A stretch of DNA of 64,000 bases, taken from NCBI RefSeq assembly GCF_036013645.1, contig NZ_CP107869.1, positions 8,680,001 to 8,744,000 on the forward strand. The letters run 5' to 3'. The position numbers were made by a program, and so were the translations under genes. This DNA is from Streptomyces sp. NBC_00490. GTDB lineage: Bacteria; Actinomycetota; Actinomycetes; Streptomycetales; Streptomycetaceae. Within the stretch, counting starts at the first letter, position 1; the number at the start of each line of letters is the position of its first letter. Of the stretch, positions 12,185-47,149 are shown in pieces. The notes below the pieces were generated by a model that saw only the letters and a program-made list of their open reading frames with translations, was not told the origin of the DNA and ran no database searches.

Positions 12185-12206
12185 AGCCCCCGCCGCGCCG
12201 GGGGCT
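12185..12206. terminator. Bidirectional terminator between conservon and GPP34 gene
   Basis: AGCCCCCG (12185-12192) and CGGGGGCT (12199-12206) form an 8-bp GC stem with a 6-nt loop. It exactly fills the gap between the GAF stop and the convergent GPP34 stop. Confidence 0.75.
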
Positions 12207-12811: not shown

Positions 12812-13054
12812 GTGCGGCTCCCCGTGGGTCCGGTGCGTCCTCGGGGATTCCAACGGGCATCCCCGGCCCGGTGTTCCCCACGGAAGGGTTCACCGGTGGC
12901 GGGCGTGAAGCGGAGCTGCGGCGCGGGTTAAGAAAACCTCGATGGACCTGGGGCGCCGCCGTACGGCAGATTGCTACGCGATCCCACCCCCTCTCCCCGG
13001 ACGCGGGCCTCTTCGGTATGTCCGCGCACGGGGATCGCACCCACAGGAGCCGCG

Positions 13055-14083: not shown

Positions 14084-14122
14084 TTTTTTGGCTCGCCCTT
14101 ACGTCCCTCTTTGGAGCCCGAG

Positions 14123-15316
14123 ATGTTCGACACCGTCCGCGACGACCTGCGCGCCACCCTCGACGAGATCCGCGCCGCCGGTCTGCACAAGCCCGAGCGG
14201 GTCATCGGCACCCCGCAGTCCAGGGCCGTCGCCGTCACCGCGGGCGGCCGCCCCGGTGAGGTCCTCAACTTCTGCGCCAACAACTACCTCGGTCTCGCCG
14301 ACCACCCCGAGGTGGTCGCCGCCGCCCACGAGGCACTCGACCGCTGGGGTTACGGCATGGCGTCCGTGCGCTTCATCTGCGGGACGCAGGAGGTGCACAA
14401 GGAGCTGGAGGCCCGTCTCTCGGCGTTCCTCGGCCAGGAGGACACGATCCTCTACTCGTCCTGCTTCGACGCCAACGGCGGTGTCTTCGAGACGCTCCTG
14501 GGCCCCGAGGACGCGGTGATCTCCGACGCCCTCAACCACGCCTCGATCATCGACGGCATCCGCCTGTCCAAGGCCCGCCGCTTCCGCTACGCCAACCGTG
14601 ACATGGCCGACCTGGAAGCCCGGTTGAAGGACGCGTCCGACGCGCGCCGCCGTCTGATCGTCACCGACGGTGTGTTCTCGATGGACGGCTATGTGGCGCC
14701 GCTGCGCGAGATCTGCGACCTCGCCGACCGCTACGACGCCATGGTCATGGTCGACGACTCCCATGCCGTCGGCTTCGTCGGCCCCGGCGGCCGCGGCACC
14801 CCCGAGCTGCACGGGGTGATGGACCGTGTGGACATCATCACCGGCACGCTGGGCAAGGCGCTCGGCGGGGCGTCCGGCGGCTATGTGGCGGCCCGTGCGG
14901 AGATCGTCGCCCTGCTGCGCCAGCGCTCCCGCCCGTACCTCTTCTCGAACACCCTCGCGCCGGTGATCGCCGCCGCCTCGCTGAAGGTGCTCGACCTCCT
15001 GGAGTCGGCGGACGACCTGCGGGTCCGGCTCGCCGATAACACCGCGCTGTTCCGCCGCCGTATGACCGAGGAAGGCTTCGACATCCTGCCCGGCGACCAC
15101 GCCATCGCACCCGTGATGATCGGGGACGCGGGCAAGGCGGGACGCCTGGCGGAGCTGCTGCTGGAGCGCGGTGTGTACGTGATCGGCTTCTCGTACCCGG
15201 TCGTCCCCCAGGGCCAGGCGCGGATCCGCGTCCAGCTGTCGGCCGCCCACTCCACGGACGACGTCGACCGGGCCGTCGACGCCTTCGTCGCGGCGCGGGC
15301 GGAGCTGGACGGCTGA
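14123..15316 (+). CDS. kbl: Glycine C-acetyltransferase (2-amino-3-ketobutyrate CoA ligase)
   Basis: A PLP enzyme of the alpha-oxoamine synthase family that cleaves 2-amino-3-oxobutyrate with CoA to glycine and acetyl-CoA, completing threonine degradation started by Tdh. Diagnostic blocks are [66 protein letters not shown], and the PLP lysine motif [13 protein letters not shown]. The length of 397 residues is standard. ATG 14123 follows GGAG. A T-run (TGATTTTTTGG) lies directly after the tdh stop but no stem precedes it, so it is unlikely to terminate. Confidence 0.96.
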
Positions 15317-15339
15317 GCCGGAGCGCACGGGGCATTTGA

Positions 15340-15359
15340 GACAATCGATCCATGATCGA
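15340..15359 (+). promoter_or_regulatory. Leaderless -10 and start-codon dyad of the LysR gene
   Basis: GACAAT (15340-15345) lies six bases before ATG 15352 and there is no Shine-Dalgarno, so transcription may start at the A of the ATG. A dyad TCGAT-ccatg-ATCGA (15345-15359) straddles the start codon and could bind the LysR protein itself or another regulator. Confidence 0.4.
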
Positions 15360-16254
15360 AGCGCGGCGGCTCCACATCCTGCGTGCGGTGGCCGACCACC
15401 GCACGGTGACGGCGGCTGCCGCCGCGCTGTACCTCACCCCCTCGGCGGTCTCCCAGCAGCTCACGGCGCTGGAGCAGGAGACCGGGCACCGCTTGGTCGA
15501 GCGCGGCGCGAAGGGCGTACGGCTCACCCCGGCCGGCGAGATCCTGCTCAGCCACGCCAACGCCGTCCTCGCCCAGCTGGAGCGGGCCGAGGCCGAGCTG
15601 GCCGCGTACGACACGGGGCAGGCCGGCACGGTCACCGTCGCCTCCTTCGCGACCGGAATCGCCCTGGTCGTCGCCCCCGCGGTGGCCCGTCTCGCCGACA
15701 CCGCGCCCGGCATCCGCATCCGCGTCCAGGACGCCGAGGGCGACGCCAGTCTGCCGATGGTGCTGGACCGCCAGGTCGACGTCGCCGTGGCGGTGGAGTA
15801 CCGAGGGGCGCCGCCCGCCGACGACCCGCGGCTGTCCCATGTCCCGCTGTACGCCGAGCCCTTCGACGCGGTCGTCCCCGTACGCCATCGACTGGCCGAC
15901 GTGAGCGAGGTGCCGCTGGCGGAGCTGGCCAAGGACCCGTGGATCGGCCCCTACCCGGGCAACCCCTGTCATGACGTGGTGGTCCTCGCCTGCGAGAGCG
16001 CCGGGTTCCAGCCCCGCCTGGAGCACTCCTCGGACGACTTCCGGGCCGTCGTCGCCCTGGCCTCGGCCGACGCGGGCGTGGCACTCGTACCGCGGTCCGC
16101 GCTGATCGGCATGGATCTGACCGGCGTGGTCGTACGGCCCGTCGACGGCGTCGCGCCGACCCGCCGGGTCTTCGCGGCCGTACGGCGTGGTGCGGAGGGG
16201 CACCCGCTGATCCGCCCGGTGCTCGAAGCGCTCGAAGAGGCCGCCCAGCCGTAG
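15352..16254 (+). CDS. LysR-family transcriptional regulator
   Basis: A 300-residue regulator. The N-terminal winged HTH is RRLHILRAVADHRTVTAAAAALYLTPSAVSQQLTALEQETG, followed by the linker helix. The effector-binding domain starts at GTVTVASFATGIALVVAPAV, with VALASADAGVALVPRSAL in the second lobe, as in the ArgP/CbbR-like majority type. The effector is unknown. It follows kbl in the same orientation by 35 bases but carries its own putative -10. The downstream neighbour is the radical SAM gene, also on the plus strand, so control of tdh-kbl or of that enzyme is possible but unproven. Confidence 0.92.
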   Translation: MIEARRLHILRAVADHRTVTAAAAALYLTPSAVSQQLTALEQETGHRLVERGAKGVRLTPAGEILLSHANAVLAQLERAEAELAAYDTGQAGTVTVASFATGIALVVAPAVARLADTAPGIRIRVQDAEGDASLPMVLDRQVDVAVAVEYRGAPPADDPRLSHVPLYAEPFDAVVPVRHRLADVSEVPLAELAKDPWIGPYPGNPCHDVVVLACESAGFQPRLEHSSDDFRAVVALASADAGVALVPRSALIGMDLTGVVVRPVDGVAPTRRVFAAVRRGAEGHPLIRPVLEALEEAAQP

Positions 16255-16290
16255 GGAACCGGCCACCGGCCGAAAGCAGTCTGGGCTGTC

Positions 16291-17664
16291 ATGCGTGTGA
16301 CGATGATCCTCCCGGCCCTGACCGAGGCGACCAGCCCGCTGTTCCGGCCCATCAAGTACTCGCTGTTCCCGCCCCTGGGCCTGGCGACCCTGGCCGGATA
16401 TCTGGACCCCGACGACGAGATCACCCTGCACGACGAACACGTGGAGCGGATCGATCTCGAGGCTCTCGACACCCCCGACCTCCTGGTCGTCCAGCCGTAC
16501 ATCACCTCGGCGAGACGCAGCTACGAGATAGCCGACCACTTCCGGGCCCGGGGCGTCCATGTCGCCATGGGCGGTCTGCACGTCACCTCTCTCCCCGACG
16601 AGGCGGCGGCCCACGCCGACACGATCTTCACCGGCCCCGGTGAGGACACCTGGCCCCTGTTCCTGAAGGACTTCCGCGACGGAGTCCCCGCCCGCCGCTA
16701 CGACTCGAACCGGCGCACCCTGGCCGGACTGCCGCCCGTCCGACGCGACCTGATCAAGCGTCACCTCTATCTGGTGCCCAACTCCCTCGTGGTGTCGCGG
16801 GGGTGCCCCCACCACTGCGACTTCTGCTACAAGGACGCCTTCTTCGAGGGCGGCAAGTCCTTCTACACCCAGACCGTCGACGACGCCCTCGCGGAGATCG
16901 ACCGGCTGCCCGGCCGCCACCTCTACTTCCTCGACGACCATCTGCTGGGCAACCGGCGCTTCGCGGAGGCCCTGTTCGACGGCATGAAGGGCATGGGGCG
17001 GCTGTGGCAGGGGGCGGGCACGGTCAACTCCGTACTGAAGCCGGGCCTGTTGGAGAAGGCTGTGGAGGCGGGGCTGCGCAGTCTGTTCGTCGGCTTCGAG
17101 ACGGTCAACGACGCCAACCTCGCCGAGCGCCGCAAGAACCAGAACATCGGCGCCGACTACGCGGCCGCGGTGCGGCGCCTGCACGACGCCGGGGTGATGG
17201 TCAACGCGAGTTTCGTGTTCGGGCTCGACCAGGACGGCCCGGACGTCTTCGACCGCACGGTCGCGTGGGCGGTCGAGCAGGGCATCGAGACGGCGACCTT
17301 CCACATCATGACGCCCTATCCGTCGACCGGCCTGTGGAAGCAGATGGAGTCCGAGGACCGGATCGTGCACCGCGACTGGGACCTGTACGACACCCGGCAT
17401 GTCGTCTACCGGCCCAAGGGGATGACGCCACGTCAGCTGGAGGACGGCTACTGGCGCGCGTACCGCGACTTCTACCGCTGGTCCAACATCTGGCGCGGCT
17501 CGGCGGCCCAGCCGGGCCGCCCTGAGCGGCTGCGGCACCTCGCGTACTCGGGCGGCTGGAAGAAGTTCGAGCCCGCGTGGGACCTGCTGATCCGCTCGCA
17601 GCGGGTGGTGCGGGCGATGCCGGCGCTGGAGCGGACGCTGGCGGCGTTCGGCGGACGGGAGTGA
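16291..17664 (+). CDS. B12-binding-domain radical SAM protein
   Basis: A 457-residue enzyme. The N-terminal about 130 residues form a cobalamin-binding Rossmann domain (MRVTMILPALTEAT, FPPLGLATLAGYL, LLVVQPYITSARRSYEIADHF, VAMGGLHVTSLPDEA). The radical SAM core has VVSRGCPHHCDFCYKDAF, giving the CxxxCxxC [4Fe-4S] ligands, then FLDDHLLGNRRF and GFETVNDANLAERRKNQN. The C-terminal domain resembles DUF4070-type (YRPKGMTPRQLEDGYWRAYRDFY). Family members methylate unactivated carbons or rearrange substrates, for example in hopanoid, bacteriochlorophyll and natural-product pathways. No biosynthetic partner is adjacent, so the substrate cannot be inferred. Confidence 0.88.
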   Translation: MRVTMILPALTEATSPLFRPIKYSLFPPLGLATLAGYLDPDDEITLHDEHVERIDLEALDTPDLLVVQPYITSARRSYEIADHFRARGVHVAMGGLHVTSLPDEAAAHADTIFTGPGEDTWPLFLKDFRDGVPARRYDSNRRTLAGLPPVRRDLIKRHLYLVPNSLVVSRGCPHHCDFCYKDAFFEGGKSFYTQTVDDALAEIDRLPGRHLYFLDDHLLGNRRFAEALFDGMKGMGRLWQGAGTVNSVLKPGLLEKAVEAGLRSLFVGFETVNDANLAERRKNQNIGADYAAAVRRLHDAGVMVNASFVFGLDQDGPDVFDRTVAWAVEQGIETATFHIMTPYPSTGLWKQMESEDRIVHRDWDLYDTRHVVYRPKGMTPRQLEDGYWRAYRDFYRWSNIWRGSAAQPGRPERLRHLAYSGGWKKFEPAWDLLIRSQRVVRAMPALERTLAAFGGRE

Positions 17665-33781: not shown

Positions 33782-34465
33782 TCAGGCGACCGTGAACTGG
33801 CTGTGGCTGCTGATCCGGCCGTCGCGGACCTGCAGCACGCGGTCGCAGTGGGCGGCGACGTCGGCGTCGTGGGTGACCATGACGAGGGCGGCGCCCTGCT
33901 CGCGGGTGACGGAGGTGAGCAGACGGATCACCTCGGTGCTGGTCGTCTGGTCGAGGGCGCCCGTCGGCTCGTCGGCGAAGACCACGTCCGGTTCGACGGC
34001 CAGGGCCCGGGCGATGGCGACGCGCTGGGCCTGTCCGCCGGACAGCTGGCCGGGCCTGCGGTGCTCCAGGCCGTCGAGGCCGAGCGGGGCGAACCAGCGG
34101 CGGGCGCGTTCCACGGCCTGCCTGCGGGGGGTGCCCTCCAGCATCAGCGGCAGGGCGACGTTCTCGTCGGCGGGCAGTTCCGGCAGCAGCTGGCCGAACT
34201 GGAAGACGAACCCGAACCGCTTGCGGCGCAGGGCGCTGAGCCGGTTCTCGCCCAGCGTGTCGATGCGGTCGCCGCGCAGCAGGACCTGCCCGCCGTCGGG
34301 GCGGACGATCCCGGCGAGGGTGTGCAGCAGGGTGGACTTGCCGGAGCCCGACGGGCCCATGATGGCGAGGGAGTCCCGCTCGCCGACCTCCACGTCGACG
34401 CCCGCGAGGGCGGTGGTGGAGCCGTACTTCTTCACGAGGCCGCGACCGGCCATAACAGTGCTCAT
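33782..34465 (-). CDS. ABC transporter ATPase, MacB/LolD type
   Basis: A 227-residue ATPase. Walker A is MGPSGSGKST at about 36-45, the Q-loop lies in FVFQFGQLLPELPADENVALPL, the signature is LSGGQAQRVAIARALA, Walker B is DVVFADEPTGALD, and the H-loop is VMVTHDADVAAHC. The ENVALPL insertion and GALDQTTS identify the MacB/LolD/FtsE group, which pairs with FtsX-type permeases; its permease follows directly. The start ATG 34465 lies 19 bases after the DUF4333 stop, so the three genes form one transcription unit. Confidence 0.95.
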   Translation of the reverse strand: MSTVMAGRGLVKKYGSTTALAGVDVEVGERDSLAIMGPSGSGKSTLLHTLAGIVRPDGGQVLLRGDRIDTLGENRLSALRRKRFGFVFQFGQLLPELPADENVALPLMLEGTPRRQAVERARRWFAPLGLDGLEHRRPGQLSGGQAQRVAIARALAVEPDVVFADEPTGALDQTTSTEVIRLLTSVTREQGAALVMVTHDADVAAHCDRVLQVRDGRISSHSQFTVA

Positions 34466-34484
34466 GAGGTGGGGTGGCCTTCTG

Positions 34485-34856
34485 TCAGCGCTCGAACTTC
34501 CAGGTGACGGACGTATGCGTGGCCTTGACCACGGAGACCGGGATCGTGACGGCCTTGCCGCCCGTGGTCCTGCCGGTGCAGGTGACGGTGGCCCCCGCCA
34601 CGGCCTTCAGACCGGTCGGGCAGGTGACGCCGGTGACCTTCTCGCCGACCCAGGGCAGCGGGTGGTACTTGCTCTGGGTGCGGCCCGCGACGACCGTGCC
34701 CGACAGGGCCCTGTGCCCGTCGACGGTCACCGTGCTGATGTCGTCGAGCCCGGTGGTCGACTCCGTCCCGGAGAGCAGGTACGTGCCGAGGCCGCCGACG
34801 GCGACGACCGCGGCCGCGCCTCCGACGGCACCGACGAGGAACTTGCTGCGCTGCAT
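34485..34856 (-). CDS. Membrane-anchored DUF4333 protein
   Basis: A 123-residue protein. Residues 8-30 form an uncleaved hydrophobic anchor (VGAVGGAAAVVAVGGLGTYLL). The external domain has the DUF4333 pattern VTGVTCPTGLKAVAGATVTCTGRTTGGKAVTIPVSV, with the two Cys presumably disulfide-linked, and ends in VTWKFER. ATG 34856 follows AGGAG. It is first in an operon with the ABC ATPase and FtsX permease, so it may be an accessory or substrate-binding subunit of that exporter. This role is inferred from position only. Confidence 0.82.
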   Translation of the reverse strand: MQRSKFLVGAVGGAAAVVAVGGLGTYLLSGTESTTGLDDISTVTVDGHRALSGTVVAGRTQSKYHPLPWVGEKVTGVTCPTGLKAVAGATVTCTGRTTGGKAVTIPVSVVKATHTSVTWKFER

Positions 34857-35421
34857 CGTGAACTCCTGCGGGTGGAAGGGCGGAGGGGAGGAGAGGGGCG
34901 GTTCGGAGGGGGCCGGAGTGGCGGCTCCGGGTGGCTCTGAAGTGGCTCCAGCCTCGCCCGCGGGCCCGGGTGTGCGCCTCGGCCATACGGCCATGACCGC
35001 GGCGGGCAGGGTCGGCCGAACGGCCGAGCTCACCGCCCGGCGCCCGCGCCCGCGGGTCACCGGCATGCCATCGGTATCCGGCCGGGGCGCCGAGGCCGGG
35101 GGCTTCGTCCGGAGCCCGGCGTTTCCCGCCGAGGCGCCCGTGCCCACGGACCCCGTCGGAGTGGGGGCGCTGGTGTCCCGGGTCCGGGTGCTGGTGCTGG
35201 TGCTGGGGGCCACGCCGGTCCTCGCCCGCTCTCGCGGTACCCGACAGGCCGGGCCGCTCCGCTCGCGCCGAGCACCGCGGCGCCACGTCGTGCCCGTCGT
35301 CCGGTCCCGCCCAGCCGTCCGGTGCGAGCTGTCGTGCCGCGCCTGCCTGCGATGCTGGCCGTGCGGCGGGTCCCGGCTGTTCAATGGGGCTGCACATTCC
35401 CGCGAGGGAGAGGAGTCGCCG
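34857..35421. other. 565-base gene-free divergent region
   Basis: No frame here has coding character on either strand. Upstream of DUF4333 are three direct heptamer-like repeats, read on the minus strand as GAGCCAC (34942-34948), GAGCCAC (34931-34937) and GAGCCGC (34921-34927), spaced 11 and 10 bp. On the XRE side lies TGTTCAATGGGGCTGCACA, an imperfect dyad about 35 bases before the GTG, which could be the XRE operator. The rest is GC-rich sequence with small GGCC-type dyads. Confidence 0.5.
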
Positions 35422-36054
35422 GTGTCACCTGTCGCCGTGCCGCCCGTGGGTGCGCGCATTCGGCGGGCGCGCCTGGAGAGCGGGCTCAGTCTGCGGGCCC
35501 TCGCGCGGGACGTCGGGGTCTCCGCGAGCCTGGTGTCGCAGATCGAGACCGGCAAGAGCCAGCCGTCGGTGAGCACGCTGTACGCGATCACGACGGCACT
35601 CGGCATCTCCGTCGAGTCGCTCTTCGAGGCGCGGGAGCCCGCCGCGGCGACGGTCGCGGGCGCCGCGCTGCACGCCATGGCCGCCTTCGCCGCCGACCCC
35701 GGCCGACGTATAGGTCCCCTGGTCACCCCGGGTGAGCGGGAGGTCCTGGAGCTGGACTCGGGCGTCGTGTGGGAGCGGCTCGGACACGTCCCCGGCACGG
35801 ACGCCGACTTTCTGCTGGTGACCTACCGGCCCGGTGGCTCCTCCGCCACCTCGGGCGGTCTGATGCGGCACGCGGGCACCGAGTACGGCTATCTCACCTC
35901 CGGTGAACTCGTCCTCACCCTCGGTTTCGAGGACCGCGTCCTGCGCCCCGGCGACGCCGTCTGCTTCGAGTCGACGACCCCGCACCGCTACCGCAACGAC
36001 GGCGCCGAACCGGCCGTGGGGGTCTGGTTCGTCGCCGGCCGGAGTGTTCAGTAG
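35422..36054 (+). CDS. XRE-cupin regulator heading the unknown catabolic cluster
   Basis: A 210-residue regulator. The HTH_3 domain is VGARIRRARLESGLSLRALARDVGVSASLVSQIETGKSQPSVSTLYAITTALGISVESLFE. The cupin domain follows (LMRHAGTEYGYLTSGELVLTLGFEDRVLRPGDAVCFESTTPHRYRND) with the usual His/Glu/His-type positions, so it may bind a pathway intermediate. GTG 35422 follows AGGGAGAGGAG. Regulators of this architecture often control amine or amino-acid catabolism (PuuR-like). It is co-directional with, and 52 bases upstream of, the M24 gene, and I infer it controls the seven-gene block to 42306. Confidence 0.9.
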   Translation: MSPVAVPPVGARIRRARLESGLSLRALARDVGVSASLVSQIETGKSQPSVSTLYAITTALGISVESLFEAREPAAATVAGAALHAMAAFAADPGRRIGPLVTPGEREVLELDSGVVWERLGHVPGTDADFLLVTYRPGGSSATSGGLMRHAGTEYGYLTSGELVLTLGFEDRVLRPGDAVCFESTTPHRYRNDGAEPAVGVWFVAGRSVQ

Positions 36055-36106
36055 CACTTGACACTTCCGGGGCGCGGTCGTTGACTCGAAGGTGGGGGTG
36101 GTCGCC

Positions 36107-37441
36107 ATGGCGATCCGCACTTTCGGACCCAACGCCGTCGACTGGGAAGAGCGCGTCGACCTGGACCGGCTCCGCGGGCAACGGCTGGCCCGGCTGCACG
36201 AGACCCTGAACCGCTCCTCCCTCGGCGCGGTGCTCAGCTTCGACTTCGCCAACATCCGCTACATGACCGCCACGCACATCGGCACCTGGGCGATGGACAA
36301 GCTGATCCGCTTCGCCCTGCTGACGCGCGGTGGCGAACCGGTCGTCTGGGACTTCGGCTCCGCCGCCCGCCACCACCAGCTCCACAACCCCTGGCTGGAC
36401 TACAGCGACGGCAAGGGCGGCCCGCCCACCGGCGCCCGCGCCGGCATCTCCACCCTCCGCGGCGCCTTCCACCCGGACGCCGGGATCGCCGAGGACGTCG
36501 CCGCGAAGATCGCCGCCGAGCTGCGCGAACACGGCCTGGCGGACGAGCCGTTGGGCATCGACGTCGCCGAGATGCCGGTCCTCGCCGCCCTGCGTGCCGA
36601 GGGCATCGACGTTGTCGACGGCCAGCAGGTCTTCCTGGAGGCCCGCCGCATCAAGACCCGCGACGAGATCTCCCTGCTGGCCCAGGCCTGCGCGATGGTG
36701 GACGCCGCCTACGAGGAGCTGTACGGCTATCTGCGGCCCGGTGTACGCGAGAACGAGTGCGTGGGGCTGGTCAGCAAGGTCCTGTACGACCTCGGCAGCG
36801 AGTACGTCGAGGGTGTCAACGCCATCTCCGGGGAACGCTGTTCACCCCACCCGCACGTCTACAGCGACCGTCTGATCCGCCCCGGCGACCCGGCCTTCTT
36901 CGACATCCTGCACAGCCACCTGGGCTACCGCACCTGCTACTACCGCACCTTCGCCGTGGGCAGCGCGTCCGGCGCCCAGCGTGACGCGTATGTCCGCTGC
37001 CGGGAGTACATGGACGAGGCGATCGCGCTCGTCCGTCCCGGCGCCACCACCGCCGACATCGTCCGGGTCTGGCCGCGCGCCGAGGAGTTCGGCTTCGCCG
37101 ACGAGACCGCCGCCTTCGCGCTGCAGTACGGCCACGGGGTCGGGCTGTCCATCTGGGAGAAGCCCATCTTCAGCCGTTTGGTCTCCCTCGACCACCCCGA
37201 AGTCCTCGAAGAGGGCATGGTGTTCGCGCTGGAGACCTATTGGCCGGCGGCCGACGGCTGGTCCGCCGCCCGTATCGAGGAGGAGCTCGTCGTCACCGCC
37301 GACGGCTGCGAGGTCATCACCAAGTTCCCGGCCGAGGAACTGCTGGTGGCGGGCCGCAAGTACTGGACGGTCGGCGGCGAACTCAACACCCGGCGGGAGT
37401 CGCAGTCCCATCTCAACCGGGGTGACTCTCATGGTGGATAG
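36107..37441 (+). CDS. M24-family (creatinase/aminopeptidase-fold) enzyme with altered metal site
   Basis: A 444-residue pita-bread-fold protein with the creatinase N-domain (residues 1-180, FDFANIRYMTATHIGTWAMD) and M24 C-domain. Of the five metal ligands of PepP/MetAP, four are visible: Asp266 in FFDILHSHLGY, His343 in YGHGVGLSI, Glu376 in FALETYWP and Glu391 in ARIEEELVV. The second Asp (D in the DITRTF motif) is replaced by Cys277 in RTCYYRTF. The overall pattern resembles non-peptidase M24 enzymes such as creatinase, ectoine hydrolase DoeA and the DMSP lyase DddP more than Xaa-Pro peptidases. ATG 36107 is preferred over GTG 36092. Its last 11 bases overlap the E1 alpha gene. Confidence 0.85.
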   Translation: MAIRTFGPNAVDWEERVDLDRLRGQRLARLHETLNRSSLGAVLSFDFANIRYMTATHIGTWAMDKLIRFALLTRGGEPVVWDFGSAARHHQLHNPWLDYSDGKGGPPTGARAGISTLRGAFHPDAGIAEDVAAKIAAELREHGLADEPLGIDVAEMPVLAALRAEGIDVVDGQQVFLEARRIKTRDEISLLAQACAMVDAAYEELYGYLRPGVRENECVGLVSKVLYDLGSEYVEGVNAISGERCSPHPHVYSDRLIRPGDPAFFDILHSHLGYRTCYYRTFAVGSASGAQRDAYVRCREYMDEAIALVRPGATTADIVRVWPRAEEFGFADETAAFALQYGHGVGLSIWEKPIFSRLVSLDHPEVLEEGMVFALETYWPAADGWSAARIEEELVVTADGCEVITKFPAEELLVAGRKYWTVGGELNTRRESQSHLNRGDSHGG

Positions 37442-38411
37442 CGCCGAACTCCTCGCCCTGTACGAGCAGATGGTCCTCATCCGCCGTACCGAGAAGGCCG
37501 CCCACGACCTGTTCCTCCAGGGACTCGTCAAGGGCACCACCCACCTCGCCGCCGGACACGAGGCGATCGCCGTCGGCGCGAGCGCCGCCCTGCGCGCCGA
37601 CGACTACGTCTTCGCCACCTATCGCGGCCACCACCACGCCCTGGCCCGGGGCGCCACCCCCGAGGAGTGCCTCGCCGAACTCATGAGCCGCGCAACGGGG
37701 TTGTGCGGCGCCAAGGGCGGCTCCATGCATCTGACCAAGGCGGCCACGGGCATGCTCGGCTCCTACGCCATCGTCGGCGCGCACCTCCCGATGGCGGCCG
37801 GCGCGGCCTGGTCGGCGCGGCTGCGCGGCACCGACCAGGTCGCGGTGGCCTTCTTCGGCGACGGCGCGACCAACATCGGAGCCTTCCACGAGGCGCTCAA
37901 CCTGGCCGCCGTGTGGAAGCTGCCCGTGCTGTTCGTCTGCGAGAACAACCTGTACATGGAGTACACGCCGATCGCCTCCGTCACCGCGGTCGCCCGGCCC
38001 GCCGCCGATCGGGCGCCCGCCTACGGCATCCCGGGCGAGACGGTCGACGGCAACGACGTCGTCGCGGTCCGGGACGCCGTCGCCGCCCTGGCGGGGCGGG
38101 CCCGGGCAGGAGACGGGCCCGCCCTGCTGGAGGCCGCCACCTACCGGCACTTCGGGCACAGCCGCTCCGACCCGGCGACCTACCGCCCGGCCGAGGAGGT
38201 CGAACGCTGGCTCAAGCACGACCCGTTGGACATCGCGCGGGGGCGGCTGACCGAGCTGGGGGTGTCCGAGGAGACGCTCACCGCGGCCGACGAGCGTGCC
38301 CTGGACGTCGTACGCAGGGCGGTCGAGGCGGCGAAGAGCGCGCCCGCGCCCGATCCGGAGCAGGCGCTGACCGATGTATGGGCCGACGGGAGTGCCGCAT
38401 GGCGGACGTGA
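37431..38411 (+). CDS. Thiamine-diphosphate-dependent 2-oxo-acid dehydrogenase E1, alpha subunit
   Basis: A 326-residue E1 alpha of the pyruvate/acetoin/branched-chain group. It shows LIRRTEKAAHDLFLQGLVKG, the substrate region YRGHHHALARG, and GGSMHLT. The ThDP motif begins GDGATNIG (GDG at 143-145) and ends ENN at 171-173. The phosphorylation-loop region is RHFGHSRSDPATYRP. With E1 beta it should decarboxylate a 2-oxo acid and transfer the acyl group to lipoyl-E2. The length and TKAATGMLGSYAIVG block are closest to acetoin-dehydrogenase AcoA-like proteins. ATG 37431 overlaps the M24 stop. No E2 or E3 gene is in the window. Confidence 0.92.
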   Translation: MVDSAELLALYEQMVLIRRTEKAAHDLFLQGLVKGTTHLAAGHEAIAVGASAALRADDYVFATYRGHHHALARGATPEECLAELMSRATGLCGAKGGSMHLTKAATGMLGSYAIVGAHLPMAAGAAWSARLRGTDQVAVAFFGDGATNIGAFHEALNLAAVWKLPVLFVCENNLYMEYTPIASVTAVARPAADRAPAYGIPGETVDGNDVVAVRDAVAALAGRARAGDGPALLEAATYRHFGHSRSDPATYRPAEEVERWLKHDPLDIARGRLTELGVSEETLTAADERALDVVRRAVEAAKSAPAPDPEQALTDVWADGSAAWRT

Positions 38412-39379
38412 TCACCTACCGGGAGGCGGTCGCCGAGGGCATCGCGCGGGAGATGCGCCGGGACGCGGCGGTCGTGTGCCTGGGAGAGGACATAGGAGAG
38501 GCCGGCGGGGTGTTCAAGACGACCGCAGGGCTGTTCAAGGAGTTCGGGCCGGAGCGGGTGTGGGACACGCCGATCTCCGAACAGGCCATCGTGGGCGCGG
38601 CGATGGGCGCGGCCATGACCGGGATGCGGCCCGTCGCGGAGATCATGTTCTCGGACTTTTTGGCCTGTTGTTGGGACTACCTCGCCAACGAGATACCCAA
38701 GGTGCGTTACATGACGGGCGGTCAGGTCACCGTGCCCCTCGTCGTTCGCACCGCCAACGGCGGCGGGCTCGGTTTCGGCGCCCAGCACTCGCAGGCCACC
38801 GAGAACTGGGCGCTCACCGTCCCCGGCCTGCAGATCGCGGCTCCGGCGACGCCCGCCGACGTGATCGGCATGATGGCGGCGGCGATCCGCAGCGACGACC
38901 CCGTGGTCTTCTTCGAGCACAAGGGGCTGCTGGCGTCGAAGGGTTCGCCCCCGCCGCCCGATCACGTGGTCGAGCTGGGGCGCGCCGCCGTCGTGCGCGA
39001 GGGTGCCGACGTGACCCTCGTCGCCCTCGCCGCGATGGTGCCGGTGGCGCTGCGGGCGGCCGCCCGGCTCGCCGAGGAGGGCATCGCGGCCGAGGTCGTC
39101 GATCTGCGCTGTCTGGTGCCGCTGGACATGAGTACCGTGCTCGCCTCGCTCGCCCGGACCTCGCGGCTCGTCACCGTCGAGGAGAACCCGTACCAGGGCG
39201 GCTGGGGCGCCACCGTCGTCTCGGTCGTCGCCGACGAGGGCTTCGGCCTGCTGGACGCGCCCGTGCGCAGGGTGGCGGGCGAGTGCGTCCCGTTGCCGTT
39301 CGCGGACGCGCTGGAGGAGCGGGTCATCCCCACCGTCGACAAGGTCGTGGCGACCGTCCGCGACCTCACCGCGTACTGA
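38399..39379 (+). CDS. 2-oxo-acid dehydrogenase E1, beta subunit
   Basis: A 326-residue E1 beta with the standard opening ITYREAVAEGIAREMRRDAAVVCLGEDIG. It continues with VWDTPISEQAIVGAAMGAAMTGMRPVAEIMFSDF, GGQVTVPLVVRTANGGGLGFGAQHSQ, and the C-terminal transketolase domain (VEVVDLRCLVPLDMST-type block, TVEENPYQGGWGATV). It overlaps the alpha gene by 13 bases and must form the alpha2-beta2 heterotetramer with it. The next gene begins 22 bases downstream. Confidence 0.93.
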   Translation: MADVITYREAVAEGIAREMRRDAAVVCLGEDIGEAGGVFKTTAGLFKEFGPERVWDTPISEQAIVGAAMGAAMTGMRPVAEIMFSDFLACCWDYLANEIPKVRYMTGGQVTVPLVVRTANGGGLGFGAQHSQATENWALTVPGLQIAAPATPADVIGMMAAAIRSDDPVVFFEHKGLLASKGSPPPPDHVVELGRAAVVREGADVTLVALAAMVPVALRAAARLAEEGIAAEVVDLRCLVPLDMSTVLASLARTSRLVTVEENPYQGGWGATVVSVVADEGFGLLDAPVRRVAGECVPLPFADALEERVIPTVDKVVATVRDLTAY

Positions 39380-39401
39380 ACACCCCGAAGGAGGAAGGGC
39401 G

Positions 39402-40745
39402 ATGACCGTTCGGACACTCCTGCGCGCAGGTCACGTGATCTCGATGGACCCCGACATCGGGGACCTTCCCCGCGGGGACGTCCTCATCGAGGACGGAAGG
39501 GTCGCGGCCGTACGGCCCGAGATCAGCGCCGATGCCGAAGTCCTCGACATGAGCGGCCGGATCGTGATCCCCGGCTTCGTCGACACCCACCGCCACACCT
39601 GGGAGGCCTCGATCCGCGGGGTCGCGCCGGACGCCACGCTCGACGACTACTTCGTCGACATCCTCGACACCTTCGCGCCGCTCTACACCCCGGAGGACGT
39701 GTACGCGGCCAACCTGGCCGGCGCCCTGGAGTGCCTGAACGCCGGCATCACCACGCTCGTCGACTGGTCGCACATCAACAACACCCCCGAACACCCCGAC
39801 GCCGCGATCCGGGCCCTCGCCGAGTCCGGCATCCGCGCCCAGTACGCCTACGGCAGCGCCAACACCTCCCTCGCCGACTACTGGTTCGAGAGCAAGATCG
39901 CGATCCCGGGCGACGACGTACGGCGGATCCGCGCCGAGCACTTCGCCTCCGACGACTCCCTGCTCACCATGGGCCTCGCCACCCGCGGCCCCGGCTTCTG
40001 TGTGAACGACGTCGTCACCGCGGAATGGGGTCTGGCCCGCGAACTGGACATCCCGCTCACCGTCCATGTCGGCATGGGACGGCTGGCCGGCCGCTTCGGC
40101 ATGGTCAAGCAACTCCATGACCTGGGGCTCCTCGGTGCGGACACCACCTACATCCACTGCTGCTACCTCAGCGAGGAGGAGTGGCGGATGGTCGCCGACA
40201 GCGGCGGTACGGTGTCCGTCGCCCCGCAGGTCGAGACGCAGATGGGGCACGGCTGGCCGCCGGTGATGAAGGCGATCGAGTACGGACTGCGGCCCTCCTT
40301 GAGCATCGACGTCGTCACCACCGTCCCCGGCGACATGTTCACCCAGATCCGCGCGGCCTTCGGCGCCGAGCGCGCCCGCGTCAACGCCGAGTCCTGGCAG
40401 GCCGATGTCCCGGTGCCCGACACGATGCTGACGGCCCGTCGGATGCTGGAGATCGCCACGCTCAACGGTGCGCATGTCGCCGGACTGGAGGACCGCACCG
40501 GTTCGCTGACGCCCGGCAAGCGGGCCGACGTCGTCGCGATCGACGCCACCGCGCTGAACGTGGCGCCGGTGCACGACGCGGCGGCCGCGGTGACGCTGTC
40601 CGCCGATGTCTCCAACGTGGACACCGTGCTCGTCGACGGCGTGATCCGCAAGCGGGACGGGAAGCTGACCGGCGACGTGGCCCGCGCCCGGCGGCTCGTC
40701 GAGGAGTCCCGTGACCGGCTCCTGGCCGCGAAGGCCGCCCGGTGA
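39402..40745 (+). CDS. Amidohydrolase-superfamily deaminase/hydrolase (AtzA/TrzN/cytosine-deaminase type)
   Basis: A 447-residue metal-dependent hydrolase. The N-terminal beta-sandwich reads LLRAGHVISMDPDIGDLPRGDVLIEDGRV, and the metal site starts at GFVDTHRHTWEAS (His63, His65). Further ligands are likely the His in LTVHVGMG, the His in YIHCCYLSEEEW and the Asp in LSIDVVTTVPGDMF. The C-terminal metal-anchor end is GSLTPGKRADVVAIDATALN. The group deaminates or dechlorinates N-heterocycles and guanidine-like compounds. ATG 39402 has AAGGAGGAAGG upstream, the best ribosome site in the cluster. The stop overlaps the GTG of the bicupin gene. Confidence 0.9.
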   Translation: MTVRTLLRAGHVISMDPDIGDLPRGDVLIEDGRVAAVRPEISADAEVLDMSGRIVIPGFVDTHRHTWEASIRGVAPDATLDDYFVDILDTFAPLYTPEDVYAANLAGALECLNAGITTLVDWSHINNTPEHPDAAIRALAESGIRAQYAYGSANTSLADYWFESKIAIPGDDVRRIRAEHFASDDSLLTMGLATRGPGFCVNDVVTAEWGLARELDIPLTVHVGMGRLAGRFGMVKQLHDLGLLGADTTYIHCCYLSEEEWRMVADSGGTVSVAPQVETQMGHGWPPVMKAIEYGLRPSLSIDVVTTVPGDMFTQIRAAFGAERARVNAESWQADVPVPDTMLTARRMLEIATLNGAHVAGLEDRTGSLTPGKRADVVAIDATALNVAPVHDAAAAVTLSADVSNVDTVLVDGVIRKRDGKLTGDVARARRLVEESRDRLLAAKAAR

Positions 40746-41617
40746 CCGCTCACCTGGTGCGCCGCGCCACCGACGTACCGCCACTGGAGTACGACGAACA
40801 CGACTACCGGCGGCGGGAGTTGGTCGGCGAGGAAGACGGCAGCGTCCATACCGGCTTCGGCGTCTGCGAGTTGCTGCCGGACGGTGCGATCGGGCCCCAC
40901 GTCCACTCGTACGAGGAGAGCTTCTGCGTGCTCGACGGGACCGTCGTCCTCGACGTGCCCGACGGGTCCTACCTCCTCGAAGAGGGCGACTACGGGCTGC
41001 TGCCGACCGGTGTCCCGCACGCCTGGCGGGGCGCCGGGGACACCGCCGCACGCTGGGCGGACATGCTCGCGCCCGTGCCGCGCGCCCGCTACGGCCACGA
41101 CACCCAGGCGGTGCCCGCGCTGCCCCGCCGCAGCCCCGTCCGCCTCGACGTCCGTGACCCGCGCACCCGTTCCTTCGGGCACTTCGAGCCCGCGCAGATG
41201 GAACCCGGCAAGCAGTCCCAGGACGTGCTCGCGGTGTCGGCGAGCATGCGCACCGCGCTGCTGGTCTACAGCGGGATCACGGTGAAGATGATGGTCGACG
41301 GCGACCTGGGCGCGGTCGCCTCCACGATGTTCATGGTGCAGTACGCCCCGGACGGTGTCGCGGGCACGCACGACCATCCCTTCGAGGAGACGTACCTGAT
41401 CCTCGAAGGGACCGTCGACGCCACCTTCGACGGCTCGGTGTACCGGCTGGGGCCCGGCGATGTGGCCTGGGCGGGCGCCGGATGTGTGCACGGGTTCACC
41501 AACGCCGGTGCGGGGCCGGTGCGTTGGCTGGAGACACAGGCGCCGCAGCCGCCGGTCCGCCACTCGTACCGGTTCACACGGGACTGGGAGTACCTGAGGG
41601 AGGTGCTGGAGTCATGA
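40742..41617 (+). CDS. Bicupin protein, ureidoglycine-aminohydrolase-like
   Basis: A 291-residue protein made of two cupin barrels. Each has a full 3-His/1-Glu metal set: His53, His55, Glu59 and His93 in GPHVHSYEESF and GVPHAW; His210, His212, Glu216 and His250 in GTHDHPFEETY and GCVHGF. The size and tandem arrangement resemble (S)-ureidoglycine aminohydrolase and related Mn-bicupins of purine catabolism. The same scaffold also serves dioxygenases and isomerases, so the reaction is not assigned. GTG 40742 overlaps the amidohydrolase stop (GTGA) and its own stop overlaps the SDR start (ATGA), indicating coupled translation. Confidence 0.85.
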   Translation: MTAHLVRRATDVPPLEYDEHDYRRRELVGEEDGSVHTGFGVCELLPDGAIGPHVHSYEESFCVLDGTVVLDVPDGSYLLEEGDYGLLPTGVPHAWRGAGDTAARWADMLAPVPRARYGHDTQAVPALPRRSPVRLDVRDPRTRSFGHFEPAQMEPGKQSQDVLAVSASMRTALLVYSGITVKMMVDGDLGAVASTMFMVQYAPDGVAGTHDHPFEETYLILEGTVDATFDGSVYRLGPGDVAWAGAGCVHGFTNAGAGPVRWLETQAPQPPVRHSYRFTRDWEYLREVLES

Positions 41618-42306
41618 GCAGTGTGCTCGTCGTCGGCGGTACGTCGGGGATCGGCCGCGAGTTCGCCCGCTTCCGTGCGGGGCGGGGGGACGAGGTGGTC
41701 CTCACCGGCAGGGACGCCCATCGTGCCGACACGGCGGCCAAGGAGACCGGTGCGCTGCGCGGCATCGCGCTCGACCTGTCGCGGCCGCGGGAGATCGCGG
41801 CGGCGCTCGACGGCATCGGGCCTGTCGACCATCTGGTCCTGGCCGGCGTCGCCCGCGACGACAACCGGGTGAGCGCGTACGACATCGAGGCCGCCCTGAA
41901 CCTGGTGACGCTGAAGCTCGTCGGCTACACCGAGGTCGTCCACGCGCTCCGGGACCGGCTGCACGACGACAGTGCCATCGTCGTCTTCGGCGGACAGGCC
42001 AAGGAGCGGCCCTACCCGGGCGCGACCACCGTGGCGACCGTCAACGCGGGCGTACGCGGGCTCGTGCACACCCTTGCCGTCGAACTCGCCCCCGTCCGCG
42101 TCAACGCCGTCCACCCCGGGGTCGTCGGGGACAGCCCGTACTGGCTGGCCAAACCGGGGGAGGTGCTCGCCGGACTGCGCACCAGGACACCCAGCGGCCA
42201 GCTCGCCACGATGGCGGACGTGGTGGACGCCGTGGACTTCCTGCTGCGCAACCGGTCGGTCAACGCCGTCGAACTCGCCGTGGACGGGGGATGGTTGCTG
42301 GGCTAG
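41614..42306 (+). CDS. Atypical short-chain dehydrogenase/reductase-fold protein
   Basis: A 230-residue SDR. The NAD(P) loop VVGGTSGIGREFAR (GGTSGIG at 8-14) is intact, and NAVHPGVVGDSPYW near the end is the usual SDR block. The catalytic region is not canonical. Where Ser and the YxxxK pair should be, it reads IVVFGGQAKERPYPGATTV then ATVNAGVRGLV, so the Lys position is Asn144 and the Tyr position is a Val. It may bind a dinucleotide without classical reductase chemistry, or catalyse elimination or dehydration. ATG 41614 overlaps the bicupin stop. The gene ends the cluster, converging with the methyltransferase gene within a shared CTAG. Confidence 0.85.
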   Translation: MSSVLVVGGTSGIGREFARFRAGRGDEVVLTGRDAHRADTAAKETGALRGIALDLSRPREIAAALDGIGPVDHLVLAGVARDDNRVSAYDIEAALNLVTLKLVGYTEVVHALRDRLHDDSAIVVFGGQAKERPYPGATTVATVNAGVRGLVHTLAVELAPVRVNAVHPGVVGDSPYWLAKPGEVLAGLRTRTPSGQLATMADVVDAVDFLLRNRSVNAVELAVDGGWLLG

Positions 42307-43121
42307 GACTTGATCCCGACGGCCCCGTACAGCGACACCGGGCCCTCGTCGGTGTCCGGGGTCTCGTCCACCGCGAGTTCGGGACGCCAGTCCTTGACCG
42401 ACACGATCCCCGGCTCCAGCACGTCGAGTCCCTCGAAGAACCGGCCGAACTCGTCCCGCGTACGGGCCACCAGCGTCACCCCGCCCGCCGCGTAGGCCTC
42501 GATGCCCCGCCGTACGTTCTCCGGCTCGAAGTCGGCGGTCATCGCGGACAGCACCAGCGCGCTGCCCGGGGCCAGCGCGCCGACCAGCGTGTCCACCAGG
42601 TCGTACGCACCGTCCTTGTCGGCGACGAAGTGCATGAGCGCGATGAGCGACAGGGCGATGGGCCGGTCGAAGTCGAGGATGCGGCCCGCCTGTTCGAGGA
42701 TCGTCCGCGGCTCCCGCACGTCGGCCTCGATGTACTCCGTCACGCCCTCCTCGGTGCCGCGCAGCAGGGCGCCGGCGTGGGCGAGGACGATCGGGTCGTT
42801 GTCGACGTAGACGACGCGGGCGTCCGCGGCGACCTGCTGGGCGATCTGGTGGAGATTGGGCTCGGTGGGAATACCGGTGCCGATGTCCAGGAACTGGCGG
42901 ATGCCCGCGTTCGCGACCAACTGACGGGTGGCCCGGTTCATGAACCAGCGGTTGGCGCGCGCGGCCCGCGGGGCGTCGCCGCTGAGCGAGGCGATCTGAC
43001 GGCCGAGGGCCTCGTCGACCGGGTAGTTGTCCTTGCCGCCGAGGTACCAGTCGTAGACGCGGGCCGGGTGCGGCTTCGTCGTGTCGATCCGCTGGACGGA
43101 GGCCGGCTCGGTCCCGGTCAC
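42303..43121 (-). CDS. SAM-dependent methyltransferase, DUF574 family (second copy)
   Basis: A 272-residue paralogue of the protein at 26776-27579. It shows DTTKPHPARVYDWYLGGKDNYPVDE, FLDIGTGIPTEPNLHQIAQQV (SAM motif I), VYVDNDPIVLAHAGALL and FFEGLDVLEPGIV. The two copies share the architecture but differ in many positions, so they are not a recent duplication. GTG 43121 follows AGAGGAG. It converges with the SDR gene; the CTAG at 42303-42306 provides both stop codons. The target is unknown. Confidence 0.9.
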   Translation of the reverse strand: MTGTEPASVQRIDTTKPHPARVYDWYLGGKDNYPVDEALGRQIASLSGDAPRAARANRWFMNRATRQLVANAGIRQFLDIGTGIPTEPNLHQIAQQVAADARVVYVDNDPIVLAHAGALLRGTEEGVTEYIEADVREPRTILEQAGRILDFDRPIALSLIALMHFVADKDGAYDLVDTLVGALAPGSALVLSAMTADFEPENVRRGIEAYAAGGVTLVARTRDEFGRFFEGLDVLEPGIVSVKDWRPELAVDETPDTDEGPVSLYGAVGIKS

Positions 43122-43231
43122 GTGTGGCTCCTCTGCTCGCCGGTCAGGGTTGCGAGCAGTCTCGCACGATGATCCGGGCCGGGCGGAGTCGGTCTTCGGC
43201 CACCTGGTTCAGGTCAACTGCGGTGCTGTTC

Positions 43232-43564
43232 CTACGGTTTGAGCGGATCGTGGCCCAGCGTCATCAGCAGGTGCCGACGCGGTGTGTCCTCGGCCGCCGG
43301 CTCGTTCTCCGAGTCCGTCTGTGCCGAGACGGTGTCCACCACCTCGTACATCACCTGGACGTCGTCATCGGTGAGATCCGTGCGCCGTTTCTGCAGGATC
43401 GCCAGGACGTGCTGCCCGGTGGGCGACCCGGCGTGTTCCGGCAGCGGCTCGGCGTCCTCGGCGGCGTCGCTGACCCGCAGCCAGGCCGCCAGCTCCTGCG
43501 AGGTCATGTTCACCACGCGGTGGAAGTCCTCCCACAGCGCGTCGAGTTCGAGGGCGTCGGTCAT
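43232..43564 (-). CDS. DUF3140 protein
   Basis: A 110-residue helical protein: LEDALWEDFHRVVNMTSQELAAWLR-type opening (actual ELDALWEDFHRVVNMTSQEL), GQHVLAILQKRRTDLTDDDVQVMYEVVDTV and a C-terminal RRHLLMTLGHDP. DUF3140 proteins are small actinobacterial proteins of unknown function, sometimes near stress genes. Here the Dps gene lies 31 bases upstream on the same strand, so the two are probably co-transcribed. ATG 43564 follows AAGGGG. Confidence 0.82.
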   Translation of the reverse strand: MTDALELDALWEDFHRVVNMTSQELAAWLRVSDAAEDAEPLPEHAGSPTGQHVLAILQKRRTDLTDDDVQVMYEVVDTVSAQTDSENEPAAEDTPRRHLLMTLGHDPLKP

Positions 43565-45117: not shown

Positions 45118-46305
45118 GTGCGTCCCGTCCACTTCGCGGCCGCCCGCCGCACCCCCATCGGCAAGCTGCGCGGAGCCCTGTCCCGCGTACGCCCCGACGA
45201 CCTCGCCGCGGCCGTCATCCGCGGGCTCGTCGCCGATGTGCCCGCCCTCGACCCCGCCCGCGTCGACGACGTCTACTGGGGCGCCGCCAACCAGGCCGGT
45301 GAGGACAACCGCAACGTCGCCCGCATGGCGGCGCTGCTCGCGGGCCTGCCCGAGACCGTGCCGGGCGCCACGGTGAACCGGCTGTGCGCCTCGGGGCTGG
45401 AAGCGGTGACGACGGCCGCCCGCACCATCGCCGCGGGCGAGGCCGACATCGTGCTCGCCGGCGGCTCGGAGTCGATGAGCCGCGCCCCCTTCGTCCTGCC
45501 GCGCCCCGACGAGGCCCTGCCGCACCGCATCGAGACGGTGGACACCCGGCTCGGCTGGCGGCTGGTCAACCCGGCGATGAAGGAACTGCACGGACTGCTG
45601 TCCATGGGCGAGACGGCGGAGGAGGTCGCGGACCGCTACGCCGTCTCCCGCGAACGCCAGGACGAGTTCGCCCTGCGCAGCCATCAACGCGCCGCCGCAG
45701 CCCGCAAGAACGGCCACTTCGACGACGAACTCCTGCCCGTGGAGCTACCGGACGGCGTGGTCGTGGACGCCGACGAGTGCATCCGTGAGGACACCTCGTA
45801 CGAGAAGCTGTCCCGGCTGAAGCCGGTGTTCCGGCAGGGCGGGAGCGTCACGGCGGGCAACGCCTCACCCATGAACGACGGCGCGGCAGGCCTCCTCCTG
45901 GTCAGCGAGGAGGCGCTGAACGACCTCGGCCTGGAGTCGCTCGGCCGCTATGTCGCCGGTGGCTCGGCCGGCGTCCACCCCGACGTGATGGGCATCGGCC
46001 CCGTCCCCGCCACACAGAAGGTGCTCGCCCGCGCCGGCTGGACCGTCGGCGACCTCCAGGAGGCCGAGTTCAACGAGGCCTTCGCCGCCCAGGCCCTCGC
46101 CTGCGTGGACCGCCTCGGCATCGATCCGGAGCTGGTCAACCCGAGCGGCGGCGCGATCGCGCTCGGCCATCCGCTGGGCTGCTCGGGGGCCCGCATCCTC
46201 ACGACACTGCTGCACCGCATGCGGCGCACGGGGGCCGCGCGGGGCCTCGCGACGATGTGCGTGGGCGTGGGGCAGGGGAGCGCGGTGCTGGTGGAGAGGC
46301 ACTAG
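45118..46305 (+). CDS. Thiolase (acetyl-CoA C-acyltransferase)
   Basis: A 395-residue thiolase with all three active-site blocks: Cys in ATVNRLCASGLEAV near residue 89, His in NPSGGAIALGHPLGCSGARI, and the final Cys in TMCVGVGQGSAVLV. It condenses or cleaves acyl-CoA/3-ketoacyl-CoA. The block AGGSESMSRAPFVLP and the opening HFAAARRTPIGK resemble 3-oxoadipyl-CoA thiolase (PcaF) and degradative FadA/AtoB types; the chain preference is not decided. GTG 45118 follows GGGGAG. A palindrome sits in the promoter. Confidence 0.93.
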   Translation: MRPVHFAAARRTPIGKLRGALSRVRPDDLAAAVIRGLVADVPALDPARVDDVYWGAANQAGEDNRNVARMAALLAGLPETVPGATVNRLCASGLEAVTTAARTIAAGEADIVLAGGSESMSRAPFVLPRPDEALPHRIETVDTRLGWRLVNPAMKELHGLLSMGETAEEVADRYAVSRERQDEFALRSHQRAAAARKNGHFDDELLPVELPDGVVVDADECIREDTSYEKLSRLKPVFRQGGSVTAGNASPMNDGAAGLLLVSEEALNDLGLESLGRYVAGGSAGVHPDVMGIGPVPATQKVLARAGWTVGDLQEAEFNEAFAAQALACVDRLGIDPELVNPSGGAIALGHPLGCSGARILTTLLHRMRRTGAARGLATMCVGVGQGSAVLVERH

Positions 46306-46375
46306 GCACGGGAAGGGCCATCAGGCGAGACGCTGCTTACGTCACTCGTTAGATGCGCATAGCATCGGGTCCCGC

Positions 46376-47149
46376 ATGAACACGATGACGCTCTGGCACA
46401 TCACCGGCTGGGAGTTCGCCGCCCTCGCCTTCGCTGCAACCCTCGTCGGCTTCTCCAAGACCGCCGTGAGCGGGGCCAACACGGTCAGCCTCGCCATTTT
46501 CGCCGCCGTCCTGCCCGCCCGCGCCTCGACCGGTGTGCTGCTGCCGATCCTCATCGCCGGGGACGTGCTCGCCGTCCTCACCTACCGGCGCCACGCCCAC
46601 TGGCCGACCCTGTGGAAGCTGTTCCCGGCGGTCGCGGCGGGCGTGGTCGCCGGCACGCTCTTCCTGATGTGGGCCGACGACGAGATGGTCCGGACGTCGA
46701 TCGGCGCCATCCTGCTGCTGATGGCCGCCGTGACGGTGTGGCGCCGCCGCACCGCCGACCAGGCCGACGAACCCGACTCGGTCGCCACGAGAACGGGCCG
46801 GATCAAGGCCCGTTCCTACGGCGTCCTGGGCGGCTTCACCACCATGGTCGCCAACGCCGGCGGCCCCGTGATGTCGATGTACCTGCTGTCGGCGGGCTTC
46901 CGGAAGCTCGGCTTCCTGGGCACCTCCGCCTTCTTCTTCCTGATCGTCAACACGTCCAAGGTGCCCTTCAGCGTGGGCCTCGGCCTCATCGACGGGCACT
47001 CGCTCCTGCTCGACGCCGCACTCGTGGCGTTCGTCGTGCCCGGCGCGTTCCTCGGCAAGTGGGCCGTGAACAGGATCAACCAGCGGCTCTTCGAACAGCT
47101 CGTGATCGCGGCGACGATCGTCGGCGGCCTCCAGCTACTGCTCCGCTGA
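46376..47149 (+). CDS. TauE/SafE-family membrane transporter
   Basis: A 257-residue polytopic protein with about eight hydrophobic segments in two inverted halves. The TauE/SafE repeats are AATLVGFSKTAVSGANTVSLAI and LGGFTTMVANAGGPVMSMYLL, the latter with the typical NAGGP. The family exports sulfite, sulfoacetate or related organic anions, and the substrate here is unknown. ATG 46376 has no Shine-Dalgarno; TAGCAT lies 10 bases upstream. The 3' end overlaps the convergent HAD gene by 15 bases. Confidence 0.9.
   Translation: MNTMTLWHITGWEFAALAFAATLVGFSKTAVSGANTVSLAIFAAVLPARASTGVLLPILIAGDVLAVLTYRRHAHWPTLWKLFPAVAAGVVAGTLFLMWADDEMVRTSIGAILLLMAAVTVWRRRTADQADEPDSVATRTGRIKARSYGVLGGFTTMVANAGGPVMSMYLLSAGFRKLGFLGTSAFFFLIVNTSKVPFSVGLGLIDGHSLLLDAALVAFVVPGAFLGKWAVNRINQRLFEQLVIAATIVGGLQLLLR

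Follow-up and report, generated by a model that had tools for sequence, protein, structure and literature searches.

Streptomyces sp. NBC_00490 carries, within the 64,000-nucleotide stretch analyzed here (the window; C1:8680001-8744000 of a 10.8-Mb, two-contig genome), seven genes at positions 35422-42306. They encode an XRE-cupin regulator, an M24-fold enzyme, the two subunits of a thiamine diphosphate (ThDP)-dependent E1 enzyme, an amidohydrolase-superfamily protein, a bicupin, and a short-chain dehydrogenase/reductase (SDR). A first-pass annotation of this DNA had described seven closely spaced genes in one direction. Open reading frame (ORF) coordinates and Pfam assignments, which match gene by gene, confirm both the shared forward orientation and the junctions: 52 bases separate the XRE and M24 genes, 22 bases separate the E1-beta and amidohydrolase genes, and the other four junctions overlap by 11, 13, 4, and 4 bases. 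All seven genes are presumably transcribed as one transcript. The genes and the matches on which their names rest are as follows.

35422..36054, forward strand: XRE helix-turn-helix plus cupin transcriptional regulator (PF01381, PF07883; best NCBIfam match PuuR, 65 bits, under its cut-off of 211)
36107..37441, forward strand: M24-fold enzyme, Cys type (PF00557; alignment to DddP; residue counts)
37431..38411, forward strand: ThDP-dependent E1 alpha subunit (PF00676, 263 bits; TIGR03182, 343 bits, under its cut-off of 394)
38399..39379, forward strand: ThDP-dependent E1 beta subunit (PF02779, PF02780; NF006667, 334 bits, over its cut-off of 321)
39402..40745, forward strand: amidohydrolase-superfamily protein, PRK08204 subfamily (NF006056, 637 bits, cut-off 391)
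40742..41617, forward strand: bicupin with two complete 3-His-1-Glu sites, H53 H55 E59 H93 and H210 H212 E216 H250 (PF07883; residue counts)
41614..42306, forward strand: SDR (PF13561; nearest NCBIfam match PRK07041, 140 bits, under its cut-off of 257)

Conservation of the seven-gene unit

The seven-gene unit is real and conserved, and it recurs in other soil bacteria. Relatives were collected in a named-genome scan (loci L050-L129) with two motifs, WDFGSAA[KR] and GYRTCYYR (the latter including a Cys discussed below), and the best 80 of 580 were retained; genes in relatives were called with a home-made caller or by tblastn at identity cut-offs of our choosing. Because all seven genes recur in 23 of the 24 Streptomyces loci L050-L073, the set represents more than chance. 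The exception, L055, stops after E1-alpha, and in L073 the E1-beta, bicupin, and SDR genes are fragmented. The remaining 56 loci of the scan contribute six more complete sets (L077, L078, L080, L081, L082, and L086), five of these six with the regulator on the opposite strand and L086 with its regulator cut by the contig start. The other loci retain subsets of the seven genes.

A search of 100 related genomes with the bicupin as sole query returned 11 matches, one of them our own genome, and 8 of 60 same-genus genomes were positive. Amidohydrolase and SDR genes flank the bicupin in all ten other genomes, and larger stretches around it contain all seven genes in eight of them (L160, L194-L198, L200, and L201); the stretch read for L199 stops within M24, ahead of the regulator. 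In a phylum sample of 395 other genomes, the bicupin was found in 16 of the 31 with a strong M24 match versus 0 of the 364 others, and a close E1-alpha in 26/31 versus 1/364, counts that measure co-occurrence in the same genome rather than adjacency and come from mutually related, and so not independent, genomes. Synteny across Streptomyces and other loci thus supports the earlier view that these enzymes belong together.

As far as our searches reach, the unit is undescribed. To our knowledge, none of the pantothenate, ectoine, Rut/pyrimidine, trigonelline, or inositol systems matches the gene set. Among the titles listed in searches of open-licence PMC papers (in one case 12 of 85), none describes such a cluster, nor did any characterized pathway with this set turn up, in keeping with the first-pass remark that no named pathway fits.

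The Cys-type M24 enzyme and its E1 partner

The canonical metal site of Xaa-Pro/M24 peptidases consists of D, D, H, E, and E. Alignment of the operon's M24 enzyme to its best solved match (4s00, named Peptidase M24, E 9e-31, which we take to be a DddP) places D266, C277, H343, E376, and E391 at these positions, with Cys277 at the second Asp. Cys277 occupies this metal-ligand position in 123 of 123 homologs of at least 45% identity, a sample partly biased by the Cys in one scan motif, and it is likewise present at this identity in genomes picked by E-value and in plasmids. Among 16 homologs below 38% identity, the position is Asp in nine and Cys in seven.

In profile scores the enzyme falls far short of DddP and ectoine hydrolase, both named in the first pass. 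DddP (NF043017) is the best NCBIfam match at 111 bits against a cut-off of 600, and the ectoine hydrolase profiles DoeA/EutD give 57.7 of 575 and 46.5 of 613 bits. For RdDddP, six metal ligands are listed as invariant (D295, D297, D307, H371, E406, and E421; PMC4108388). By comparison with that list, the D307 equivalent is Cys277, D297 falls in an alignment insertion, and the other four of the six positions are kept, which leaves the six-ligand set incomplete. A predicted structure of the enzyme was poor (predicted local distance difference test, pLDDT, 64.3) and was not used. From its aligned residues, we propose that the M24 enzyme (M24-Cys) is a non-peptidase hydrolase or lyase.

M24-Cys is the core of the unit and is usually paired with a ThDP E1. 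Across four samples, Cys-type M24 has an E1 no more than 10 kb away in 21/21, 19/35, 12/18, and 7/10 cases, versus 0/7 for the Asp type. Since the 10.8-Mb genome contains only three strong E1 matches besides the operon's own pair, an E1 next to M24 would rarely be expected by chance.

The E1 pair possesses the alpha and beta domains of a 2-oxo acid dehydrogenase E1. It resembles the E1 of acetoin and pyruvate dehydrogenases (AcoAB, PDH E1) in that both subunits are full length and the beta subunit exceeds the NF006667 cut-off, and one plasmid E1 relative adjoins an annotated acetoin dehydrogenase E2. It differs from them in having no adjacent E2 and in grouping with other M24-linked E1 genes. 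The E2 noted as missing in the first pass is indeed absent beside the E1, as the genome's E2 matches all lie at other loci (E3 was not searched for), and none of 21 loci of L050-L073 has an E2 within 10 kb. Across the four samples, Cys-type M24 has an E2 at this distance in 0/21 and 1/18 cases where E1 clade I prevails, versus 11/35 and 7/10 in the other two samples; the counts for aldehyde dehydrogenase are 0/21, 6/18, 4/35, and 7/10.

In a tree, the M24-linked E1 genes separate into three well-supported clades: clade I, which includes the operon's E1 (27 rows, 100/99), one of fused alpha/beta genes from other Actinomycetota (11 rows, 100/100), and one of Rhodobacteraceae genes (5 rows, 100/100). 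M24 and E1 were likely, though not provenly, paired independently more than once. The stronger sign of this comes from sequence identities: relative to this operon, clade-II loci mostly share 74-77% in M24 but only 35-41% in E1, whereas in distant clade-I loci both proteins are near 60%.

Proposed pathway and its alternatives

We tentatively read the unit as an operon for the oxidative catabolism of a small molecule, controlled by its own XRE-cupin regulator and composed of two modules, with M24-Cys supplying the E1 where an E1 is present. The reactions, their order, the use of O2, the borrowing of E2 and E3, and a catabolic rather than biosynthetic role are all what we infer. Module B would comprise the SDR, the bicupin, and the amidohydrolase-like enzyme: (i) the SDR would oxidize an alcohol to a ketone or enol, (ii) the bicupin would cleave or rearrange this product at a cupin metal center, probably with O2, and (iii) the amidohydrolase-like enzyme would open the bicupin product hydrolytically. 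In module A, cleavage of the intermediate by M24-Cys would yield a 2-oxo acid or alpha-hydroxyketone; the ThDP E1 would then decarboxylate or split this product with E2/E3 borrowed from the cell's other complexes.

The putative role of the bicupin draws on its modeled fold. Structural comparison of an AlphaFold2 model (pLDDT 87.6) returned quercetinase and salicylate dioxygenase as the nearest folds, in a search where a fold's absence from the results excludes nothing, and the best solved match by sequence is also quercetinase. The bicupin fold and metal-site His/Glu set are of quercetinase type, a combination common to other bicupins and not specific. The predicted likeness to quercetin 2,3(2,4)-dioxygenase and salicylate 1,2-dioxygenase is one of fold, but identities in the structural alignments are 17% and 13%.

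It is also possible, on a slightly weaker footing, that M24-Cys represents a new enzyme class with a Cys in its metal site that makes the substrate of a ThDP E1 and has been combined with several E1 lineages. It would then make up the lower half of a catabolic pathway, so far undescribed, that Actinomycetota share with marine Rhodobacteraceae; haloarchaea would have a distant M24-SDR-cupin version, and this operon would be one complete form. Several observations weigh slightly against both this reading and the one above. A 25th Streptomyces-titled locus, L087, has an M24 of 77% identity in a different arrangement, with a fused E1 and no operon form. In L202 (genome G083, 622-4769), the amidohydrolase, bicupin, and SDR genes come straight after M24 without an intervening E1, and the contig ends in M24. 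The E1 tree contains several long branches, its deep order is not settled, and independent origins are not proven by it.

Breakdown of a sugar acid, polyol, or cyclitol, resembling inositol catabolism, is a rather unlikely alternative, in which the SDR would oxidize, the bicupin isomerize, and the E1 split an acyloin. In its favor, loci of Acidimicrobiaceae, Microbacteriaceae, and Rhodobacteraceae have ribose-type ATP-binding cassette (ABC) transporter genes next to Cys-type M24, an SDR there is nearest to acetoin reductase and iditol dehydrogenase though under their cut-offs, and E1 relatives of 40-48% identity sit in phosphotransferase system or sugar ABC clusters. However, sugar kinase, aldolase, and sugar transporter genes are all absent from the cluster in the window, and we know of no usual place for M24 and an amidohydrolase in sugar or polyol pathways.

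The first-pass annotation favored a nitrogen-rich substrate that the amidohydrolase would deaminate, with a ureidoglycine-aminohydrolase-like bicupin and an M24 enzyme cleaving a C-N bond; we regard this as improbable. The amidohydrolase does have the metal ligands of its superfamily (H63, H65, H222, H252, and D303; HxH, H, H, and D are kept in 71/71 homologs), as do the triazine hydrolase/8-oxoguanine deaminase group to which it is related (114 bits to 7ww2), and its NCBIfam subfamily, PRK08204, carries no function name. In deaminases of this superfamily, the Glu of an HxxE motif is catalytic. Here Met225, three residues past the metal ligand His222, replaces that Glu, which is present in 0 of 71 homologs. 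The four solved relatives listed all have HxxE; it aligns to Met225 in AtzA, and for the other three it falls within or next to an insertion. For (S)-ureidoglycine aminohydrolase (PRK11171.1-2), with its 445-bit cut-off, the bicupin reaches 23 bits, its nearest folds lying elsewhere as noted above, and M24 has Cys at a ligand position and falls far under the ectoine hydrolase cut-offs. What survives of the earlier interpretation is the linkage of the enzymes, the lack of a known pathway, and the absence of E2 beside the E1; the nitrogen-rich substrate does not fare as well.

A non-catabolic role in tailoring or detoxifying a secreted compound, such as a natural product, would suit the patchy accessory distribution (the 8/60 same-genus genomes above) and the local lack of E2 and importer, but is highly doubtful for a conserved unit without biosynthetic genes whose relatives couple M24-E1 to E2, aldehyde dehydrogenase, importers, and in some cases LpdA.

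For a recurring, widespread operon, the lack of any described pathway would imply that soil and sea contain a carbon or nitrogen source not yet recognized. Through the M24-Cys site, one can test directly for further non-peptidase chemistry of the peptidase fold besides creatinase, ectoine hydrolase, and DddP, and the frequent pairing with a ThDP E1 narrows the chemistry to seek. A candidate operator, described below, would provide a handle for reporter-based inducer screening.

Candidate operators, flanking genes, and wider relatives

A scan for TGTTCART and an alignment of spacers yielded the following sites.

35378..35385, forward strand: TGTTCAAT half-site, candidate operator upstream of the XRE-cupin gene (TGTTCART scan)
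36045..36052, forward strand: TGTTCAGT half-site, XRE 3' end and XRE-M24 spacer, candidate operator for the enzyme genes (TGTTCART scan)
36058..36063, forward strand: TTGACA, -35-like, in the XRE-M24 spacer, with TT(G/C)ACT 17 nt further (36081-36086) (alignment of 25 spacers; not called by consensus scan)
39375..39382, reverse strand: third site, TGTTCAGT, at the E1-beta/amidohydrolase junction, overlapping a stop codon; weak candidate (TGTTCART scan)

The pattern, picked after viewing the alignment, occurs three times in 64 kb (35378, 36045, and 39375) versus 0.36 expected, a number reached in 0 of 100 shuffles. At the first site, relatives mostly have CTGTTCAATG-n3-CTGCACA, some followed by GAACG, and the exact motif recurs at the E1-beta/amidohydrolase junction in 14 of the 23 Streptomyces junctions examined. 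Within L050-L073, TGTTCA/TGAACA lies at most 180 nt upstream of XRE in all 23 loci with enough upstream sequence, and at most 150 nt upstream of M24 in 23/24 versus 266/3154 background windows. The corresponding counts in L074-L129 are 11/35 for XRE and 17/56 for M24, versus 456/6431. Autoregulation of the operon by the XRE-cupin protein through these candidate operators fits the data, as TGTTCA-type sites precede both the XRE-cupin gene and the M24 gene. A consensus scan of 35200-42500 called neither a sigma-70 promoter nor a terminator. Rfam searches for a riboswitch that might point to the substrate gave zero matches in 34000-43500 and likewise in seven relatives; six further relatives yielded two msiK leaders, which in L093 and L104 lie at the distant end of the stretch.

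A scan of ten neighboring ORFs identified DUF4333, ABC ATPase, and FtsX permease genes upstream, and Methyltransf_19, DUF3140, ferritin-like, and alpha/beta hydrolase genes downstream, all of these on the opposite strand; one ORF was unmatched. Among these ten there was no lipoyl protein and no recognizable importer of the types found in relatives. Further downstream, a thiolase gene and a TauE/SafE-type exporter gene occupy 45118-47149 on the forward strand.

Loci with parts of the two modules also occur. M24-E1a-E1b is present without the bicupin in L130-L134, L136, L138, and L143, whose genomes give no bicupin match anywhere. In L084, L085, L114, L115, L117, and L120, a ribose-type ABC transporter adjoins M24, bicupin, SDR, and a divergent amidohydrolase, with no E1 found within the stretch read. 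L091 lacks the amidohydrolase at its usual place. On six Rhodobacteraceae plasmids, the order solute-binding protein-SDR-M24-E1a-E1b-lipoyl-aldehyde dehydrogenase-E2 adjoins a sugar-type ABC transporter. Streptomyces YIM 121038 combines M24 with LacI, NAD(P)-dependent oxidoreductase, aldehyde dehydrogenase, VOC, fused E1, E2, flavin reductase, and LLM genes. The loci on Paenarthrobacter plasmids contain RidA, a regulator or cupin, an enoyl-CoA hydratase-type gene, and dehydrogenase genes. When a ligand was sought for the binding proteins of relatives, only generic sugar-binding relatives were returned, and a search for the substrate in protein names gave generic names only among the best 120 of 8000 and the best 120 of 5292 matches.

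On one of these plasmids (Paenarthrobacter sp. R1, NZ_CP127116.1; L171), positions 9196-16464 contain a Cys-type M24 with RidA, XRE, dehydrogenase, SDR, and LpdA genes; the flavin reductase gene of sulfonamide degradation, sulR, is about 2.2 kb away. A link to sulfonamide breakdown was set aside, as the M24 family is far wider. Term searches of PMC10873849 and PMC9329766 gave no match to peptidase, ridA, cupin, or thiamine.

L112, L126, L128, and L129 contain a second, more distant M24 (50-56% identity) 7-11 kb from the first, with an XRE gene near it in three of the four. L125, L126, and L084 are titled Bifidobacterium breve metagenome-assembled genome (MAG), Planococcus, and Acidobacteria MAG; these titles agree poorly with loci so near those of other Actinomycetota, and the records are possibly mislabeled or contaminated. 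The closest plasmid E1 pair (53/56% identity) is that of Rhodococcus sp. USK13 (L190, 7503-10952), with aldehyde dehydrogenase, ring-hydroxylating dioxygenase, and arylsulfatase genes nearby and no M24 in the stretch read. A plasmid of Halorussus caseinilyticus (L178, 9046-11633) encodes an M24 relative of 35.6% identity, with Cys at the same place, between an SDR gene and a small cupin gene.

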